Shown: positions 8,506 through 17,594, counted from the stretch's first letter. The stretch: 20,201 bases of DNA from a virus (IMGVR_UViG_3300034375_009683:1-20201), one strand, 5' to 3'. Notes: generated by a model not told the origin, from the sequence alone. A program made the numbers and translations.

Positions 8506-9221
8506 TGGCTTTTAGTGCATTTACAAATCGATTACCAGATCCAAATTGGACAATTAGTGAAGCAGGAGAAGGACACGCATCAAGTTATACTGCGGGTCCA
8601 GGGTTTGCTTCTGTAAAATTTACAGCAAACCAACCTGTGTCTTTTTCAAGAACAAACAGTGGTCGTGTAACTACAAGATCAATAGTTGGTCATCACTGGA
8701 GTATAGGTATTACATATAATCCTATGACTCGCGAACAGTTTGAACCAATTTACAATTTTTTGCTTGAAAAAAGAGGACGACTTAAACCATTTTTTGTTGT
8801 ACTACCTCAAAATGCTGATCCAAGAACTACAACAAGTGGAACAATTTCAGTTCAAGGAAGTATAACTAGTGGGGATTCAAATTTTTTAATAGATGGAATG
8901 GACAGTGTCACTGGTGGATTACGTCCTGGTGACATGTTTAATTTCTCAGATTCGTCAAATTCAAATCATCTCAAAATATATAAAGTTGTAAGAGTTGCAG
9001 ACTCAACGAATAAGTTATCTACTGATACTGCTTTAAATACTACTGATGAACGTAGACTTTATGTTGTACCACCAGTTGAAAAAGATGTAACAGATGGATC
9101 AACACTTACTTATTCAAATCCAATGTTTCGTGTAGTACAACGAGGTGATGTACAAGAGTACTCACTTGGTACAAATAATTTATATACTTTTTCACTCAAT
9201 TTAGAGGAGGCTCAACCCTAA
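8505..9221 (+). CDS. Distal tail-like / minor tail protein
   Basis: A 238-residue beta-rich protein between the tape measure and the large tip protein, where long-tailed phages encode the distal tail or lambda M/L-type proteins that form the ring initiating tube assembly. The N-terminal half contains LPDPNWTISEAGEG and then MTREQFEPIYNFLLEKRGRLKPFFVVLPQ, a helix plus strand arrangement seen in distal-tail-type proteins that describe an allowed substitution region. A central part (TSGTISVQGSITSGDSNF ... LRPGDMFNF) looks like an inserted beta domain, and the end (FRVVQRGDVQEYSLGTNNLYTFSLNLEE) returns to the core. A GGAGGT at 8488-8493, 11 bases upstream, and a one-base TAATG overlap fix the start. 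The exact family is uncertain. Confidence 0.65.
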   Translation: MAFSAFTNRLPDPNWTISEAGEGHASSYTAGPGFASVKFTANQPVSFSRTNSGRVTTRSIVGHHWSIGITYNPMTREQFEPIYNFLLEKRGRLKPFFVVLPQNADPRTTTSGTISVQGSITSGDSNFLIDGMDSVTGGLRPGDMFNFSDSSNSNHLKIYKVVRVADSTNKLSTDTALNTTDERRLYVVPPVEKDVTDGSTLTYSNPMFRVVQRGDVQEYSLGTNNLYTFSLNLEEAQP

Positions 9222-12200
9222 TGACTAAACGTAGTATAAATTCTTCAATAGAAGAAATTTTAGTAAGTAACTCTGAGTTTGAGTATGCTCATCTTATAAA
9301 ATTCGAACGCCCTTTTGCAAAAGACCCTGAAAGTCCAGACTTTCGTACAAATGCAAATCGTTATGCGTATTTTACAGACGCAAGTCGTGATATAAGTTTT
9401 AATGATGGTAGTACAGATCAAGATGGAGCTTCTAATGGCTCTCAAGTATATAGAGCAAACAGAGTAAAATCTATTGGTTCCTATTCAGAAACAACTGCAC
9501 CAAGAGCAACAAACATGGGTCTTACACTTTCAGGAGATCATCTTGGAACTTCAGTATCTATAACAGGAGACTTTGGCAGCGCAGCTTTTACAGTCGACTC
9601 TACTTTTCATGATGATGCTGATTCTACAGATTTAATAGACTTTGGTTTTCGTGAAGGAGACAAAGTAAAAATAACAAAAAACAGTGGAACATTTTCTACT
9701 GGAGTAACTTCTGTAATTTATATTATTACTGGATTTAGTAATAATAATCGTACAATGGCATTTACTACTACAGGAGATGATTCAGACGACATAACAACTT
9801 ATCCTACAGACACAAGTGTATCAGTAACAATATCATTAGAATCAGAAGAACTTAAAGGAGTTCTTGCTGATAAAGCAACTTTAACACTTGCAAATCCCGC
9901 TTTTCTCAATCGAGAAGTATTTATTCATAAAGTTTTCATAGACCCAGAAACTGGAAACATACAAGGAAATTCTAGTATTCTTATATTTAAAGGCATTATT
10001 GCAGGTTGCTCTATTGATGAAGGACCAAATGGAAGTAATGTAAAATGGAATCTTACAAGCCATTGGGGAGACTGGTCTCAAGTCGGAGGAAGACTAACAA
10101 CTGACGATACTCACAGAGCATTAGATGGAAATGGAAAACCACAACCTAATTTAACAATAAAACCAGAATATGCAGATGACTTAGGTTTTATACATTCAGA
10201 AACAACACTTAGTGCAATTGCAAATTATAAAACTTACGAAACAGTACAAAAATACAGTACAAAGAAAAGAGGTGGAATCGCTGGGTTATTTGGTGGTAAA
10301 AAAACTGTAATAAAAGAGGAACAAAAAGAAATTGATAATGAAGTTGATCTTACTGTTGGTTTACAAGGAAAGTTTCTACCTGTAGTTTATGGTGTACAAA
10401 GACTTGCAGGTATACCGATATTTGCAGATACAGATGCAAATGATTCAAAAATTGTTTATGTAGCAGACGCAATTTCCGAAGGTGAAATACATGGACTTTA
10501 TAATTTATATATTGATGGAATTCCTTTAATCTGTACTGATGCAGCAGACGCCGCAGTACGAAACTCTATTAGTGGCGCAGATAAAGATAATAGTCAATTA
10601 CAGTGCTACGGCAGAGCAGATAGAGGAGATACTATAGGAGGAACTGCAGAAACATCAGCAGCAACTGATTTAACAAATTTTTATAACCCTAGTTCTCCTT
10701 TATCACAACTATTATTAGAAGCCGTAGAAGAATCTACAGATCCAAATGAACTAAAAGTAATATACAATAATCTATTAAAAAATGCAGCTTATTTTTATGC
10801 AAATGTAACTCAGGACAATGTTCCTAGTATAACTGCAAGTTCTGCAGATGCACTTGGTTTATCTCACGGAGAGCATGGAAGTATTTCACATCCACATAAT
10901 ATGTCCTTTACATTCTTCAAAGGATCAAATTCACAATTAGCATCTAATATGCTTGTAACTCAAGCAGAAGGAACAGGATTTAAACGACAAAATGATTACT
11001 ATGAGTCTAGTATTCCTTATTGGAGCCCAAATCATAGATTGTTAGATACTGCATATATGGTAAATAGTTTTGTTATTTCTGCAGATTCAACTGAAATTCC
11101 TGAATTAGAATATGTTGTAAGAGGACGTGTTTTAGAATGTTATAACTTTGATAATTCTTATGTTCCAGATGATGTACTAGGCGGAAGTGATGATGAAGCA
11201 AATTTTAAAGAAGGAGATACTGTTACAGTTGAAAGAAGTACAGATGGAAGTTCGTGGTCTACTACAAATGTAGAAGGAAATGCTTCAGATACTAGTTTCA
11301 GAATATTACATAAATATTTATTGACAACAAATGATGGAAGCACACACTATAGATTTTTATTAGATCAAACTCCAGATTTAGATGCTGTTAATGGACTACC
11401 TGCAAAAACATATCTAAGATTAAAACAAGCTGGTGCATCAAACTATTGGCACATGAGAACTTTTAATCACAGGAATATTACAAATCAAAATTTTGCTGTT
11501 TATGCCAAATCTCCTACAGCAGTTGGAGTAAACGGTAGTAATGAAATACAATTTACTTTTTCAACTAGTGATGCAAATTTACTAAAGGCCGGATACACAG
11601 ATGAACTAGCAAATCAACCAGGAAAAGCACTTTATAGTTTTTTTACAAATAATTGTACTGCACTTACTAATTTAAAAGATGGTCAAGCTGTTGGAACTTG
11701 GGATGGAGATACTCTTACCTTAAAAAATGTAATCTATGATTCTACTAAAAATAATAATGTAGCAATTGGAAGCGTTACAAATGTTCTTAATATAGATGTA
11801 TACAAAAGTAGAAATTTCTTCATGGGTGGACCAGGTGCACCTTTTGATGGGTTTGATAATAATGCTGACTTTACAGGAGCCACAATTACATTAAATCATA
11901 GTGGAGAAAGCAGAAGAATTACAAGTTATGTTGCTGGCGAAAAAAGAATAGAAATAGAAAGTCCTTTTAAAACTTTAACAGAAACAGACTATGATGCAGG
12001 AATTATAAAATTTGATATTTCTGGTACACAAGGGGATAAAAGAGCCGTTACAAATACAGCTTTACAATTACTAGATTATATGAAAGATCCTAGATATGGT
12101 AAAAATCTAGATGTAAATAATGATATTGATTTAGCCTCTTTTATATCATCAGCAAAACTTTGTGAAGTACGAGGAACTCTTACTTTAGGTACAAGAGAAA

Positions 12201-15200
12201 CAAATCTAACAATAGGGGATTACTATAAAATAACAGATGGTAGTGGAAATCATTTAGGCTCTGGTAGAGTAAAAACTTTTACCTCAAACAGTGTGACTTT
12301 TGATAATTTATCAGGTAAATTTATAAGACTATACGGTAATCATATAGCTTATGCAGATGATGAATATATTGTAACTGATGAAGGAAATTTATATCAAAAA
12401 TCAGGTGCAGGATATCTATCAACTAAACCAACTCATACAAGTGGAACAATAGGGGGAGCAACTTATATTAGTCCTTCTTCTGTAACTATAAATTCTGTAG
12501 TTAATAAAATATCTAGCTTTGATCTTACGAGAGAATCTGGATCAGGTGCAGCTACTCTTACAATTGATGTTTCTGGAGGACCAGCAGCTATTGCTCCTAC
12601 TTATTCTTTATATGATTCAGATTTTGTAAAGTATTGGAGATATATGGGATGGGAACATCACAAACAATGTTTTGTAACTCGACATCAGACAAACTTTATT
12701 ATAGATACATCAAAATCAATTTTTGAAAATATGAGCGTATTTTTATCTCATATGAATGGAATGTTGTCATATGAAAGCGGAAAATACGTACTTGATATAG
12801 AAACTCAGGTAACAGCACCAACAGCAAGTAATACATTTAATTCAGTAACTTATGATTGGAATGTAAATCCAGAGTATATTGATAATACAGATATAATTGG
12901 AAGCATCTCACTAACAGATAATTCAGCTCGTAATGCAAAAAATACAATTAAAGCAAGTATTACAGACCCACAAAATAATTGGTCTTCACGAAGTGTATCC
13001 TTTTTTAATAGCAGTTTCTTGGAAGCTGACAGAAAAGTTGTAAAAACAGGAAATTTTAATTATACAGGTATAACAAACTATTATAATGCAAGAATAGGCA
13101 CAGAAAAAGAATTAATTCAGACTCGTTTTAGTAGAGAAATAAGTTTTAAACTTGGTCCAAAAGGATTATTATTAAAAGCTGGACAAGTTATTTCTTTAAA
13201 TTATGAGCCTTTTGGATTTTCTAGTAAACTTTTTAGAATTAATAATTTAAACTTTAATCCTGATTGTTCAGTAAGCGTAAAAGCAACTGAATATGATGAT
13301 AGTATGTATGTCATTTCTGCTGTTAGAGCAAATGAATTAAGACAAGAAGCAGCAACTCAAGCTCAGCCTTTATCTGCACCGAGTGCGCCTACAGGACTCT
13401 CCGCAACTACAACTAGACCAGGAAGTGTAATACTAACATGGACTAACCCAGCAGACTTCGTAGATCAAAGTGATGATGTTGAAATCTGGGTATCAGATGA
13501 TAATAATAGAGAAAATGCTACTTTATTACATGTTGAACTTGGAAATGTAACTAATTTTACATATACAACTGCTGGTGCAGGAACTAAGTTTTATTGGGTA
13601 AGAGTACGACGAGTAACAAATCAATTAAAGAGTAAAAAACTATTAACATCTGCTTATCATCCAACAAGCGCTACAGGAGGAGTAACAGGTACTTCAAAAA
13701 TACTTTCTCCAGATGTACAGCTTAGTCATGGAGCAATAAACTTTTTCTTTGATTCTGATGGGGTTCTAGATCCTTCAGGAGCAGCACAAGACGTTACTGT
13801 TACAGCAACTTTATTAAATTTAACAGCAACTCCTACTTTTTCATTAGTAGAAGCAGACGGTAGTTCTCAATCAGATATAACTTTTACGACGGGTGCAACA
13901 AGTTTATCTGGGTCAAGTGCTACTGTTGATGCTAGTTCAGCAAGTGTAAGTACTACACCAAAACTATTAAAAGTAACTGTTACTGAAAGTGGAGAAACAT
14001 TTACAAGACAAATACCAATTGGAATACTTAAATCGGGTAGTATTGGAGTAGATGGGGATGATGGATTAAGAACAATTCAAGGATATCTATACTATGAAAG
14101 TACAGGATCTACTGCACCGAGTGCCCCTTCAGGAAATACTTATACTTTTACAACGGGTGTAGTTACAGGAACAGGCATAAATGATAGTGGTACAACAAAT
14201 GTTTGGAAAAATTCACCAAATACTACAGATGCAACTTCAACAAATACTTACTGGACTGTTCGTTATTTTGGAACAGAGGCTTCAGCAAATTCAAGTACAA
14301 TATCTGTAACTTATAGTAATGTTGTTCAATTTACAAATTTTGATGGAGTAGTTACATTTAGTAATGGAACTTTCTCAGAAGTTGGGGGAACTGCTATTAC
14401 TACTATTGATGGTGGAAATATTGATACAGGAACAATTACTGCAGATAAAATTAAATTAAGTGGAACAGGTTCTTTAAGTATTACAAGTTTAGATAATGAT
14501 GCAAACTTTATAACTTCAGCAGGAGCTCCAGTACAGTCTGTTGCAAACTTAACTGGGGCAATCACGACTGCAAACTTAAGTGCACAAGGGCTAAGATTAA
14601 CAAGTGACTTTTCTGGGTTTGCTACAGTAGCAACAACAGGTAGTGTTGGAGATACTACTGGTACTTTACCAACAAATAGAGGTGGAACAGGAAGGACAAG
14701 CACAGCAAGTTATGTAGCAGATTTAAGTGCAGCAGGTTTACGATTAACAAGTGACTTTTCTGGTTTTTCTACAGTAGCAACAACAGGTAGTGTTGGAGAT
14801 ACTACTGGTACTTTACCAGTAAATAGAGGTGGAACAGGTAAAACAAGCACAGCAAGTTATGTAGCTGATTTAAGTGCCGCAGGTTTACGATTAACAAGTG
14901 ACTTTTCTGGGTTTGCTACAGTAGCAACAACAGGTAGTGTTGGAGATACTACTGGTACTTTACCAACAAATAGAGGTGGAACAGGTAGAACAAGCACAGC
15001 CGCTTACGTAGCTGATTTAAGTGCCGCAGGTTTAACTTTAACTTCAAATTTAGGAGATGCAGCAACAGCAAGTATTGCAGATATACGAGCAGGGACAACC
15101 AAAGCGGATGTAGGATTATCAAACGTAGATAATGATTCTACTGCAACGATAAGAGCAGGGACAACTAAATCAGATGTAGGACTCGGAAGCGTTACAAATG

Positions 15201-15352
15201 CAAATCCTGCCGGACAATTAACAGGGGCTTTTAGTGCAGTTACTTCGGTAACAGCAGGAAATATCTTTATTGGAGCAGCATCAAGTGCAACTACAAACTA
15301 CATTGAACTAAGTGCTGCAAATGCAAACATAATAATAGCGGATAATACATAA
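9221..15352 (+). CDS. Tail tip / central fibre protein, lambda J-like (host specificity)
   Basis: At 2043 residues this is the longest protein here. Residues about 1-290 form an L-like minor tail region (RYAYFTDASRDISF, later NVKWNLTSHWGDW). Residues about 355-480 contain GKFLPVVYGVQRLAGIPIFAD, a typical J-family core strand pattern. Residues about 1100-1280 form a hub-like region (YWRYMGWEHHKQCF, GKYVLDIET, GQVISLNYEPFGF). An FN3-like domain spans about 1387-1470 (PSAPTGLSATT ... FYWVRVRRV). Then come beta domains, a short IGVDGDDG segment, and DGGNIDTGTITADKI near 1730, a motif common before J-type C-termini. Three 49-residue repeats occupy 1790-1936, and two 22-residue repeats follow. It probably closes the tail tip and carries host contacts. 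AGGAGG at 9205-9210 and a TAATG overlap support the start. Confidence 0.85.
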   Translation: MTKRSINSSIEEILVSNSEFEYAHLIKFERPFAKDPESPDFRTNANRYAYFTDASRDISFNDGSTDQDGASNGSQVYRANRVKSIGSYSETTAPRATNMGLTLSGDHLGTSVSITGDFGSAAFTVDSTFHDDADSTDLIDFGFREGDKVKITKNSGTFSTGVTSVIYIITGFSNNNRTMAFTTTGDDSDDITTYPTDTSVSVTISLESEELKGVLADKATLTLANPAFLNREVFIHKVFIDPETGNIQGNSSILIFKGIIAGCSIDEGPNGSNVKWNLTSHWGDWSQVGGRLTTDDTHRALDGNGKPQPNLTIKPEYADDLGFIHSETTLSAIANYKTYETVQKYSTKKRGGIAGLFGGKKTVIKEEQKEIDNEVDLTVGLQGKFLPVVYGVQRLAGIPIFADTDANDSKIVYVADAISEGEIHGLYNLYIDGIPLICTDAADAAVRNSISGADKDNSQLQCYGRADRGDTIGGTAETSAATDLTNFYNPSSPLSQLLLEAVEESTDPNELKVIYNNLLKNAAYFYANVTQDNVPSITASSADALGLSHGEHGSISHPHNMSFTFFKGSNSQLASNMLVTQAEGTGFKRQNDYYESSIPYWSPNHRLLDTAYMVNSFVISADSTEIPELEYVVRGRVLECYNFDNSYVPDDVLGGSDDEANFKEGDTVTVERSTDGSSWSTTNVEGNASDTSFRILHKYLLTTNDGSTHYRFLLDQTPDLDAVNGLPAKTYLRLKQAGASNYWHMRTFNHRNITNQNFAVYAKSPTAVGVNGSNEIQFTFSTSDANLLKAGYTDELANQPGKALYSFFTNNCTALTNLKDGQAVGTWDGDTLTLKNVIYDSTKNNNVAIGSVTNVLNIDVYKSRNFFMGGPGAPFDGFDNNADFTGATITLNHSGESRRITSYVAGEKRIEIESPFKTLTETDYDAGIIKFDISGTQGDKRAVTNTALQLLDYMKDPRYGKNLDVNNDIDLASFISSAKLCEVRGTLTLGTRETNLTIGDYYKITDGSGNHLGSGRVKTFTSNSVTFDNLSGKFIRLYGNHIAYADDEYIVTDEGNLYQKSGAGYLSTKPTHTSGTIGGATYISPSSVTINSVVNKISSFDLTRESGSGAATLTIDVSGGPAAIAPTYSLYDSDFVKYWRYMGWEHHKQCFVTRHQTNFIIDTSKSIFENMSVFLSHMNGMLSYESGKYVLDIETQVTAPTASNTFNSVTYDWNVNPEYIDNTDIIGSISLTDNSARNAKNTIKASITDPQNNWSSRSVSFFNSSFLEADRKVVKTGNFNYTGITNYYNARIGTEKELIQTRFSREISFKLGPKGLLLKAGQVISLNYEPFGFSSKLFRINNLNFNPDCSVSVKATEYDDSMYVISAVRANELRQEAATQAQPLSAPSAPTGLSATTTRPGSVILTWTNPADFVDQSDDVEIWVSDDNNRENATLLHVELGNVTNFTYTTAGAGTKFYWVRVRRVTNQLKSKKLLTSAYHPTSATGGVTGTSKILSPDVQLSHGAINFFFDSDGVLDPSGAAQDVTVTATLLNLTATPTFSLVEADGSSQSDITFTTGATSLSGSSATVDASSASVSTTPKLLKVTVTESGETFTRQIPIGILKSGSIGVDGDDGLRTIQGYLYYESTGSTAPSAPSGNTYTFTTGVVTGTGINDSGTTNVWKNSPNTTDATSTNTYWTVRYFGTEASANSSTISVTYSNVVQFTNFDGVVTFSNGTFSEVGGTAITTIDGGNIDTGTITADKIKLSGTGSLSITSLDNDANFITSAGAPVQSVANLTGAITTANLSAQGLRLTSDFSGFATVATTGSVGDTTGTLPTNRGGTGRTSTASYVADLSAAGLRLTSDFSGFSTVATTGSVGDTTGTLPVNRGGTGKTSTASYVADLSAAGLRLTSDFSGFATVATTGSVGDTTGTLPTNRGGTGRTSTAAYVADLSAAGLTLTSNLGDAATASIADIRAGTTKADVGLSNVDNDSTATIRAGTTKSDVGLGSVTNANPAGQLTGAFSAVTSVTAGNIFIGAASSATTNYIELSAANANIIIADNT
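14588..15028 (+). repeat. Three tandem 147-bp (49-aa) repeats in the tip protein gene
   Basis: Units are 14588-14734, 14735-14881 and 14882-15028, each beginning GLRLTSDFSGF and containing GSVGDTTGTLP, NRGGTG and YVADLSAA. Identity between units is about 92-94% by eye, and a 48-base tract starting ACAGTAGCAACAAC is identical in all three. A fourth, diverged beginning (GLTLTSNLG) follows at 15029. The GTLPxNRGGTG motif is typical of tail fibre shaft repeats. High DNA identity suggests recent duplication and possible copy-number change. Confidence 0.95.
15088..15219 (+). repeat. Two tandem 66-bp (22-aa) repeats in the tip protein gene
   Basis: The units begin with AGCAGGGACAAC at 15088 and 15154, 66 bases apart, and encode RAGTTKADVGLSNVDN and RAGTTKSDVGLGSVTN. 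The GTTKSDVGLxNV pattern is a familiar shaft or trimerisation repeat near the ends of phage tail fibres. The protein ends soon after. The second unit is only partly conserved toward its end. Confidence 0.8.
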
Positions 15353-16161
15353 TGGCAAAAAGAGTTATATTAGGAAAAATATCAACAGGAGTTTACGGAC
15401 TTCGAATATCACGAAAAGGAGTAGATGTAACAACTGCATCAGGAAAAGATCTACTTTTTGATAGCACAACAAATTCAGGACTTGGCAGATATTTTCGAAA
15501 GTTTAGTAGTGCAACTGCAGCTGCAGGGTTTAATAATTTTATACCTGCAAGCGGCGGCACAGCAGATACTGAAAATGTTTCAGGTACAGAATATCATCCT
15601 TTATTTTTATACTTACAAGATGGAATGGGAATAGAGTATGATACCAGCGTTCAATCATATTACGACCCTACCAATACTGCAAATAGAGTTCCAGATGCGC
15701 AAGGAACGCAACCTACAAGTGATGATGTTATAATTACAGGAACAAGTACTACTTCAAGAGTTCAAGAAAGATTAGATATGTTTGCTTTTAATTCAGGAGC
15801 AGATACAAATTTATTAAATCCAGCTCCTATTAATAGTACTCGACATGCAGGATTTCCTGTGACTTTTACAGGAAATGCAACTGATCATGGAACTAATATG
15901 AGATATTTTGCTCCTGCGAATACTGTAAATCAGCAATATTCTTCGAACACAGTAGGCGGATATGGAAAAAGACTTGAGTATCGACTATATAATGGACAAT
16001 CATTAAATAGCAGATTCATTTATGGAGATACAAGTGGAAGCTGGTATTATGAAGTAGATAGAACAAGAATGGGAGGCAATCCTCCAACAAATGTAAAAGT
16101 AGGAGTATTTCGTATACCTTGTGGGTATGGTTATATGACTTCTACATATATGGGATTTTAA
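15352..16161 (+). CDS. Tail tip accessory protein, MAKR N-terminal module, paralogue 1
   Basis: A 269-residue protein whose first 28 residues (MAKRVILGKISTGVYGLRIS, then RKGVDVTT) match the N-termini of the next two genes, while the rest is unrelated to them. The shared module probably anchors the proteins to the same site on the tail tip and the variable parts project outward. The body is beta-rich and aromatic, with many Asn, Thr and Tyr residues, and ends GVFRIPCGYGYMTSTYMGF. No enzyme motif is visible. The start overlaps the stop of the tip protein gene by one base (TAATG), and no good Shine-Dalgarno is present, implying coupled translation. I do not recognise the C-terminal domain; receptor binding is an inference from position. 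Confidence 0.7.
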   Translation: MAKRVILGKISTGVYGLRISRKGVDVTTASGKDLLFDSTTNSGLGRYFRKFSSATAAAGFNNFIPASGGTADTENVSGTEYHPLFLYLQDGMGIEYDTSVQSYYDPTNTANRVPDAQGTQPTSDDVIITGTSTTSRVQERLDMFAFNSGADTNLLNPAPINSTRHAGFPVTFTGNATDHGTNMRYFAPANTVNQQYSSNTVGGYGKRLEYRLYNGQSLNSRFIYGDTSGSWYYEVDRTRMGGNPPTNVKVGVFRIPCGYGYMTSTYMGF

Positions 16162-16162
16162 A

Positions 16163-16588
16163 ATGGCAAAAAGAGTTTTATTAGGAAAAAGAGGAAGTCA
16201 ATTTGGATTATTTGTATCTAAGGCAGGATATGATGTAAGCGATACAAGTTTGCACGAAGATAAATTAATGTTTTCAACAAGTTCAAGTATTGACGAATAT
16301 TTACAATTTACACCTATTGGAAATACAAGTGCAAATACAACTGCTGATACAGCAACAGTACAAAATGTAGGAGTAACGGGAACTCCTACGATTTCAGTTC
16401 CAGATAATGATTACAGTAAATTAATTATATTTCAAACAGAAGGTACAGGCTATGTGCCTCTTGCAACTTCAACAGGAGGGGCAACAAGTACTACAGTAAC
16501 AAAACCAAGTACTTTTTCAAACTCAGGAATAACAAATTCAAATGTTATTTCAGACTATAAATTTGCAGCAATTGGAGACATATTTTAA
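16163..16588 (+). CDS. Tail tip accessory protein, MAKR N-terminal module, paralogue 2
   Basis: A 141-residue protein with the same N-terminal module as its neighbours (MAKRVLLGKRGSQFGLFVSK, then AGYDV). Its C-terminal part is short, Ser/Thr-rich and beta-prone (TATVQNVGVTGTPTISVPDN). It starts one base after the previous stop without a clear Shine-Dalgarno. It is the shortest of the three, little more than the shared module plus one small domain, and could be a minimal decoration or a truncated relative of the third. No sign of a frameshift was found. A structural role at the tail tip is inferred from its place. Confidence 0.7.
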   Translation: MAKRVLLGKRGSQFGLFVSKAGYDVSDTSLHEDKLMFSTSSSIDEYLQFTPIGNTSANTTADTATVQNVGVTGTPTISVPDNDYSKLIIFQTEGTGYVPLATSTGGATSTTVTKPSTFSNSGITNSNVISDYKFAAIGDIF

Positions 16589-17175
16589 TGGCAAAAAGAT
16601 TACTTCTTGGAAAAAGAGGAAATAATTTTGGACTATTTGTTTCAAAACCTGGAGTAGATGTAACAAGTACTAGCACTACAGGAGGAATGGCTTTTGATTC
16701 AAACTCTATAGAAAGCCCGAAAGTAGTGGGATATGGACAGGGAATTTTATCTCCTCGTACAACTGGAGATTTAACATATGATAGTGCTAAAACTATATAT
16801 ACTGCATCTTCTTCTGCTTCGCATGTTGTAAGAGTATCTCATGGGTTGAGCTATGCTCCTCTTGTATTTGTAAGATGGAGTTATGGTGGTGACTTATCAA
16901 GCTCAAAAGCAAAACGTACATATAATATGGGGCATGTTTCTTCAGAATATGCAGTTTTTCAGTTTGGTATTTTTGGAGGAGGTTTTTATTATGTTCAAAG
17001 TAAACTTGGAATGGGTTTAAAAGGAGAAGTTGATACAAGTTATTTGTACCTTGCAAGTATGGAGTGTGGAGCATATGATAACGGGTTTGGTGCAAATCAA
17101 AATAAATTTAATGGCGTAAATATTTATTACGCATATGTAATAACAGATGGAGCAGACAAAGGAGTATTTTTATGA
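16588..17175 (+). CDS. Tail tip accessory protein, MAKR N-terminal module, paralogue 3
   Basis: A 195-residue protein beginning MAKRLLLGKRGNNFGLFVSK, then PGVDVTS, very like paralogue 2 over 25 residues. The C-terminal part is different: VVGYGQGILSPRTTG, then SASHVVRVSHGLSYAPLVFVRWSYGG, with several aromatic residues and Gly-rich turns (GIFGGGFYYVQSK), as in a compact beta-sandwich. A GGAG at 16574-16577 sits 10 bases before the ATG, and the gene overlaps the previous stop by one base. The HGLSYAPLVFV style resembles surface domains in tail proteins that I have seen near phage tips, but I cannot name the family. Confidence 0.7.
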   Translation: MAKRLLLGKRGNNFGLFVSKPGVDVTSTSTTGGMAFDSNSIESPKVVGYGQGILSPRTTGDLTYDSAKTIYTASSSASHVVRVSHGLSYAPLVFVRWSYGGDLSSSKAKRTYNMGHVSSEYAVFQFGIFGGGFYYVQSKLGMGLKGEVDTSYLYLASMECGAYDNGFGANQNKFNGVNIYYAYVITDGADKGVFL

Positions 17176-17594
17176 GTCAGTATACAGTTTTTTATAATTC
17201 TGACAAAGAGATTGAAATGGTATTAAATGGACAGGCGGATGCCGCAACCATTTCAGCACAAGAAGGAACAGGACTATCCACTTTAGTAGTAGACGTAGAG
17301 GACACACCTACATCTCATTACTATGTAAATGATACAGAAGATGGAGTAGTTCTAAAATCAGAGTTCGACATAACACTCGACTCTATGACAAAAGAAATAG
17401 ATGAACAATTTACTTTTTCAAATGTACCAGAAGGAACAAATATAGCTATAAACCAAGTTATCACTAGTACTATGGATTCTAGTGGAACTTTAACTCTAAC
17501 TGCAACAACAGCAGGAGAATGGAGAGTTGTATTTACAAAAGATAAGTATTTTGAATTAGTTTACAAAATTTATGTAAAAAGGAGAACACTATGA
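17172..17594 (+). CDS. Small tail structural protein with Ig-like domain
   Basis: A 140-residue protein. The middle has HYYVNDTEDGVVLKSEFDITLD, and the second half reads as an Ig-like beta-sandwich (FTFSNVPEGTNIAINQ ... SGTLTLTATTAGEWRVVF). This resembles a widespread small phage protein with a pattern like HYVD..TGEV, then a TLD strand, then a sandwich ending GTYRV, usually encoded near the tip or fibre genes. Its role is probably structural or in fibre assembly. The ATG overlaps the upstream TGA (ATGA), and AAAGGAG at 17158-17164 is well placed. The match is from memory of the pattern, so the family is provisional. Confidence 0.6.
   Translation: MSQYTVFYNSDKEIEMVLNGQADAATISAQEGTGLSTLVVDVEDTPTSHYYVNDTEDGVVLKSEFDITLDSMTKEIDEQFTFSNVPEGTNIAINQVITSTMDSSGTLTLTATTAGEWRVVFTKDKYFELVYKIYVKRRTL

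Follow-up and report, generated by a model that had tools for sequence, protein, structure and literature searches.

Receptor-binding loci located behind gpJ are known from Escherichia coli siphophages, and in Drexlerviridae, Dhillonvirus, Nonagvirus and Seuratvirus the loci for receptor-binding proteins (RBPs) lie directly downstream of gpJ (PMC8594841). The adhesins encoded there are believed to be seated on the J tip without covalent linkage, distant siphophages can have the locus in common, and a cognate superinfection-exclusion gene is thought to be paired with the RBP gene. Here we analysed a virus record of 20,201 bp (IMGVR_UViG_3300034375_009683; the window, meaning this whole stretch) in which three tandem paralogous genes, hereafter the trio, stand directly downstream of a J homologue. 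Like the RBP loci, and by extension T5 pb5, the trio consists of small genes immediately behind a lambda-type J and is common to distant phages, and a non-covalent seat on the J tip is proposed for its products as well. It differs in that three paralogues with a common N-terminal module are accompanied by a fourth gene, with no exclusion lipoprotein apparent. We lean, if only slightly, towards reading the trio as a triad of paralogous tail-tip adhesins docked on the J trimer, possibly as a 1:1:1 heterotrimer.

Three paralogous genes sharing an N-terminal module

An earlier reading of the DNA (the sequence-only reading) had placed three tandem genes, with products starting MAKRxxLGK, at 15352–17175. 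Plus-strand open reading frames (ORFs) were found at exactly these coordinates, and all three proteins begin in this way: gene 1 (position P1; 15352..16161, 269 amino acids (aa)), gene 2 (P2; 16163..16588, 141 aa) and gene 3 (P3; 16588..17175, 195 aa). They abut or overlap one another, the J-like ORF upstream (9221–15352) and a further ORF downstream (17172–17594). In BLASTP comparisons within a small set, gene 2 resembled gene 3 orthologues at 72–76% over the first 29 residues (E ~1e-9) and gene 1 was linked to these at E 1e-4 to 1e-3, demonstrating that the likeness is not due to chance. The products had been described as diverging completely after a GLxxSxxGxDV pattern. The pattern is present; however, alignments extended the shared module to ~40–45 residues (M-x-x-R-..LG..G..GL.vSkpG.DV....L.FdS), and it ends past GxDV in a conserved L/M-x-F-(D/S)-S, as it also does in Rhizobium and Brevundimonas phages. 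On the plus strand the module spans 15352..15483 in gene 1, where profile matches to orthologues reached E 1e-20, 16163..16288 in gene 2 and 16588..16710 in gene 3, in each case from alignments and profile. Pfam, PHROGs and NCBIfam returned no significant family for genes 1–3 or the module, the window genes had no sequence match to known RBP families, and the cultured members compared are annotated as hypothetical proteins with no Pfam/NCBIfam family. A sequence search of solved structures gave chance matches only (Candida lipase B).

Near-identity of the 5' DNA of genes 1 and 2 was also confirmed, with one difference in the first 28 bases. Identical codons were used at 8/9 shared residues in genes 1 and 2 (5.2 expected) and at 14/21 in genes 2 and 3 (11.2 expected). 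The DNA near-identity is thus mostly explained by shared residues and AT-rich codon usage, and constitutes weak evidence for recombination.

In a maximum-likelihood tree of 56 proteins, the position label required 13 changes compared to 27 in shuffles (0/200 as low) and the phage label 49; proteins grouped by position and not by phage. This suggests that the duplications are old and the positions inherited, in a tree where many branches are weak, a seven-member P3 group has support (97/96) and the genes of the window itself are securely placed only with close orthologues. At residues 2–3, identity was 46% within phages versus 17% between phages (0/2000 permutations, a test in which base-composition effects remain), and no such within-phage agreement was observed for the module core (residues 15–38). 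Codons at residues 2–3 often differed, and in other phages the co-varying residues are encoded by different synonymous codons. This favours a shared partner over gene conversion, which was rejected on this codon evidence as the source of the shared N-termini.

Copy number, fusions and transfer of the trio

We further investigated the occurrence of the module in distant phages. Further phages and prophages were fetched with a degenerate DNA pattern requiring a single SKPGxDVLTA, i.e. one copy only, and the module profile was then run over whole records. Copies were counted per phage, as the sequence-only reading had proposed. In 22 records (21 of them distinct), between 14 kb (partial) and 335 kb in length, the count was exactly three, in tandem and directly behind a J-like gene; the window likewise carries three tandem units directly after J. 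Two records cut by a contig end had one and two copies, respectively. The module was found behind J in the Rhizobium phages RHEph10, RHph_N1_10, Y2_11 and Y1_11, which have lambda-type tails, in X2_26 and Y52, whose gene order indicates megatron-like tails, i.e. tails of the gene transfer agent (GTA) type, and in Brevundimonas phage MaInes. In the last of these (vB_BpoS-MaInes, L020 6567–6998), the first trio member is an unannotated gene between the tail fibre gene and MAINES_00660.

Pelagibacterium lacus had three copies in tandem and one elsewhere, the latter a lone P3-like gene (L110 5885–6376) on a different contig from the trio. Among 398 genomes from the order of P. lacus, 14 gave profile matches. 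Besides P. lacus, three copies at once were detected in prophages of four (G262, G277, G402, G411) and, with a more sensitive profile, of three others (G032, G216, G331); G192, G361 and G408 had two copies and, next to them, a third gene whose start has diverged, G095 and G205 fused forms, and G260 an isolated remnant. A class-wide sample of 385 genomes returned only the centre genome itself. Pattern matches in Tenacibaculum and Winogradskyella (L040, L042, L047) were discarded, as their KPGYDVLTAI lies in another protein and not in the phage module. Rhizobium phage 16-3 has no module in its first 50 kb, so the genetic evidence for adsorption linked to its h gene cannot be transferred to the trio.

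Members of the trio were also found fused to one another. P1 and P2 form one ORF in L028, L036, L064 and L065, P2 and P3 are fused in L068, and all three occupy one coding sequence (CDS) in the Sinorhizobium phages phi2LM21 (a 520-aa protein) and StopSmel and in a prophage (L073/L102), where annotation or reading of the sequence gives one open frame in each case, with full-length homologues in Aussie and HMSP1-Susan. As the phi2LM21 modules were in the profile training set, the matches to StopSmel (65% identical) and L102 are the better support; in L102 the profile passes 2/3 fused units and the first was read by eye. J stopped before P1 and was never fused to it in any locus with a readable J end (that of L029 was unresolved), as expected if J is homotrimeric and the cap is not. 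The family phrog_21060 (unknown function), which includes the phi2LM21 protein, corresponds to the triple-fusion form of the trio; it had not previously been linked to the three-gene form, and the window genes do not match it. Domain additions were seen as well: L033 P2 (1683–2804) has a LamG/concanavalin domain (PF13385, 2e-14) inserted in the module hairpin between the first two strands, and L035 P3 has a ~400-residue extension.

Several IMG/VR records carry the same trio in the same order. Compared to the window, identity in these records was 35–53% for upstream tail genes and 39–57% for downstream genes, and an island of high identity comprised the J C-terminus (42–63%) and the genes behind it (76–91%), i.e. 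gene 1 (80–90% in 7 related loci), gene 2 (76–91%), gene 3 (76–81%) and gene 4 (81–85%). Each trio gene in these loci retained its own C-terminal domain and no domain swap was seen. No match in the related records was obtained for the ~1580 N-terminal residues of J or for the 238-aa gene that precedes it. Those with full tails have a lambda-like order, with separate genes between the tape measure and a ~1600-aa J, in place of which the window has one 2043-aa protein. As the J end and genes 1–4 are similar while the J body is unmatched, they behave as an exchangeable block, the cassette moving as a unit, and relative L011, whose J end is different, puts the exchange boundary at the J end or immediately ahead of it. 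This boundary points to a site where natural recombination swaps putative host-recognition units. The sequence-only reading had named invariance of the copies between phages as an outcome that would speak against it, and this was partly observed: conservation is higher in the trio than in the neighbouring genes, and what moves is the cassette as a whole, made up of the J end and genes 1–4. Gene 3 of the window lineage was mostly invariant at columns 16–60 and at its C-terminal end, while columns 121–180 included variable stretches, a pattern that exposed loops would show; gene 3 alone as query retrieved no related loci.

Predicted folds and the candidate arrangement on the J end

The J-like ORF encodes 2043 aa and leaves no gap before gene 1. 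Its centre matches phrog_31 (4e-34) and, weakly, the GTA megatron model, which likens it to lambda J and the GTA megatron; the trio is also found in phages whose tails are megatron-like. In lambda the receptor-binding end is part of J itself, whereas the window J terminates with a short conserved strand motif and separate proteins would supply the adhesive domains. Its C-terminal ~134 residues (14948..15352, plus strand), ending NYIELSAANANIIIADNT, are the proposed docking site, and in most of the distant trio phages the J ends read ..IDLxNxRIlIaD. Paracoccus phage Pkon1 and Acinetobacter phage Presley have a similar J-end sequence and no trio detected by the profile; the J-end motif is therefore not enough to predict a trio. 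A second motif resembling the J end (GALRSKDGRLTIDFSSGAILVMA) closes a small phi2LM21 gene (L093 4875–5096) that lies between J and the triple fusion.

The C-terminal domains had been described as unrelated. A family-wide C-terminal pattern (v.fP.l.Y.P.v ... y.v) and the score of window gene 3 on a C-terminal profile built without its own lineage (13.9 bits; 300 shuffles ≤6.9) contradict this in part. The AlphaFold2 model of gene 3 (19 sequences) had a predicted local distance difference test score (pLDDT) of 61, with residues ~76–190 predicted at low confidence as a beta-sandwich. The model of relative L030 P2 (128 aa, 23 sequences) reached pLDDT 82 and showed a hairpin (residues 5–10 and 13–19) followed by a beta-sandwich. 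Its ten best Foldseek matches included the Pam1 tailspike receptor-binding domain, the R2 pyocin fibre, AP22 gp53, AP22 gp54 and the lectin SLL-2, at probabilities of 0.8–1.0 (0.9–1.0 for the Pam1 tailspike, R2 pyocin fibre and AP22 gp53; 0.82–1.00 when SLL-2 is counted with these), the best aligning over ~80 residues with a root-mean-square deviation of 2–3 Å. In a viral structure library, the best matches (E down to 3e-9) were proteins without names. The C-terminal domain of L030 P2 is therefore predicted to resemble trimeric receptor-binding tips, at a level below formal significance (E 0.05–0.6 against the PDB). The R2 pyocin, AP22 gp53 and Pam1 tips are homotrimers on long fibres, whereas the window has three different short proteins without a shaft. 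Genes of 141–269 aa with no fibre or Tfa match also lack the long shaft and Tfa-type chaperone of side tail fibres. Papers on roseophage R4C and phiCbK described other fibre types.

Together with the shared module and the place behind J, the adhesin-like domain predicted for a relative supports in part the earlier idea of a docking module carrying surface domains at the tail tip, without its reuse for domain exchange. The ~45-residue N-terminal module, which starts as a beta-hairpin in the relative's model, would attach to the tip without a covalent bond, the J trimer's conserved C-terminal strands being its most likely seat, and leave the C-terminal beta-sandwich facing the host; P1, P2 and P3 may then combine 1:1:1 into a heterotrimeric, pseudo-threefold cap for the J homotrimer. 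We infer that the trio proteins are in the virion, bind J, bind receptors and assemble 1:1:1 on the J homotrimer. An adhesin triad on the J end would explain the gene position, the conservation of the J end, the modular fold, the lectin insertion in L033 and the block transfer. A 1:1:1 cap would account for the fixed number three, for fusions that join trio members to one another and not to J, and for N-termini that vary together. The stricter form, an obligate heterotrimer with a fixed place per paralogue, is a tentative proposal that we would not yet bet on; here a pseudo-threefold cap breaks the symmetry of homotrimeric J, each tip displays three adhesive faces, and the cassette passes between phages with unrelated tail tips. 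Known fibre tips are, to our knowledge, either homotrimers or single RBPs. That a paralogous trio is nearly invariant and occurs naturally in 1+2, 2+3 and 1+2+3 fused forms suggests that its tip is heteromeric, in which case a single phage could display three binding surfaces on one threefold fibre. No comparable paralogous triplet turned up in the literature searched, which lies mostly outside subscription papers. Naming the triad should allow annotators to find candidate host-recognition genes in Rhizobium, Sinorhizobium and Brevundimonas phages and in uncultured viruses.

Other arrangements could produce some of the same observations. Each paralogue might be a homotrimer, with the three stacked one after another on the fibre axis, following the order of the genes (J3, P1-3, P2-3, P3-3), like fibre segments, which would suit the fixed gene order, the fusion of neighbours only and fold matches that are themselves homotrimeric fibre tips. 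We consider this unlikely, although worth keeping in mind, because stacking predicts J–P1 fusions as readily as P1–P2 fusions and none occurred in the loci read, and because a separate docking partner for each module would not predict joint variation of residues 2–3 in all three. The genes could instead encode tail-assembly chaperones or superinfection-exclusion proteins (compare the lipoproteins of some coliphages) that are situated beside J and are not virion parts. Exclusion proteins do occur among genes behind J in other phages (PMC8594841), and a tail-assembly chaperone is annotated behind J in Paracoccus phage Pkon1. However, no signal peptide or lipobox was apparent by eye in genes 1–4, and no lipoprotein or exclusion protein, hence no paired exclusion gene of the Drexlerviridae type, was recognised among genes 1–5 (Pfam, PHROGs and NCBIfam; lipobox by eye). 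The fibre-tip fold predicted for a relative, the lectin-type insertion in one member and the presence of three fused adhesin-like units in one CDS are also unlike a chaperone, making this explanation improbable.

The mechanism put forward by the sequence-only reading, a reused anchor whose surface domains are shuffled through short identity tracts to give rapid host-range change, fared worst and is now very improbable. The 5' DNA common to genes 1 and 2 and the occasional additions elsewhere (L033 P2, L035 P3) are what it would lead one to expect, but DNA identity was near the codon-usage expectation, the related loci showed no C-terminal swap, the tree was position-specific and synonymous codons differed at the co-varying residues.

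Several observations weigh against the adhesin triad. The C-terminal domains of window genes 1 and 2 did not score above shuffles on the C-terminal profile, so homology there was not demonstrated; Foldseek matched nothing to the low-confidence gene 3 model; and the PDB matches of L030 P2 were not significant. Copy number and completeness also vary: a TM7 phage and a podovirus-like contig have a single module copy each, which, with the lone fourth copy in P. lacus, indicates that the module does not require three; the N-terminus of the third gene is divergent in L066, L067 and L069; and in L071/L101 only 2/3 units were detected, the third fused unit being read by eye. The triple fusion could itself trimerise. 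Finally, the literature searched held virion proteomics, complex or receptor data for no member.

Gene 4 and the remainder of the J-like gene

Gene 4 (17172..17594, plus strand) is an ORF of 140 aa that is without the module and co-conserved with the trio, and Rhizobium and Brevundimonas phages have alignable homologues of it in the corresponding position. The Rhizobium copy matched phrog_18216 at 1.5e-4, the window copy only at 0.059. We infer that gene 4 encodes an assembly helper or a further part of the tip.

By eye, the N-terminus of the J-like protein appears to incorporate parts resembling gpL and gpI, a region for which related records have separate genes. Within the 3' part of the gene for this protein (14595–15034) lie three tandem 147-bp copies (93% match) that encode ...GTLPTNRGGTGRTS... 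segments just upstream of the conserved J end.

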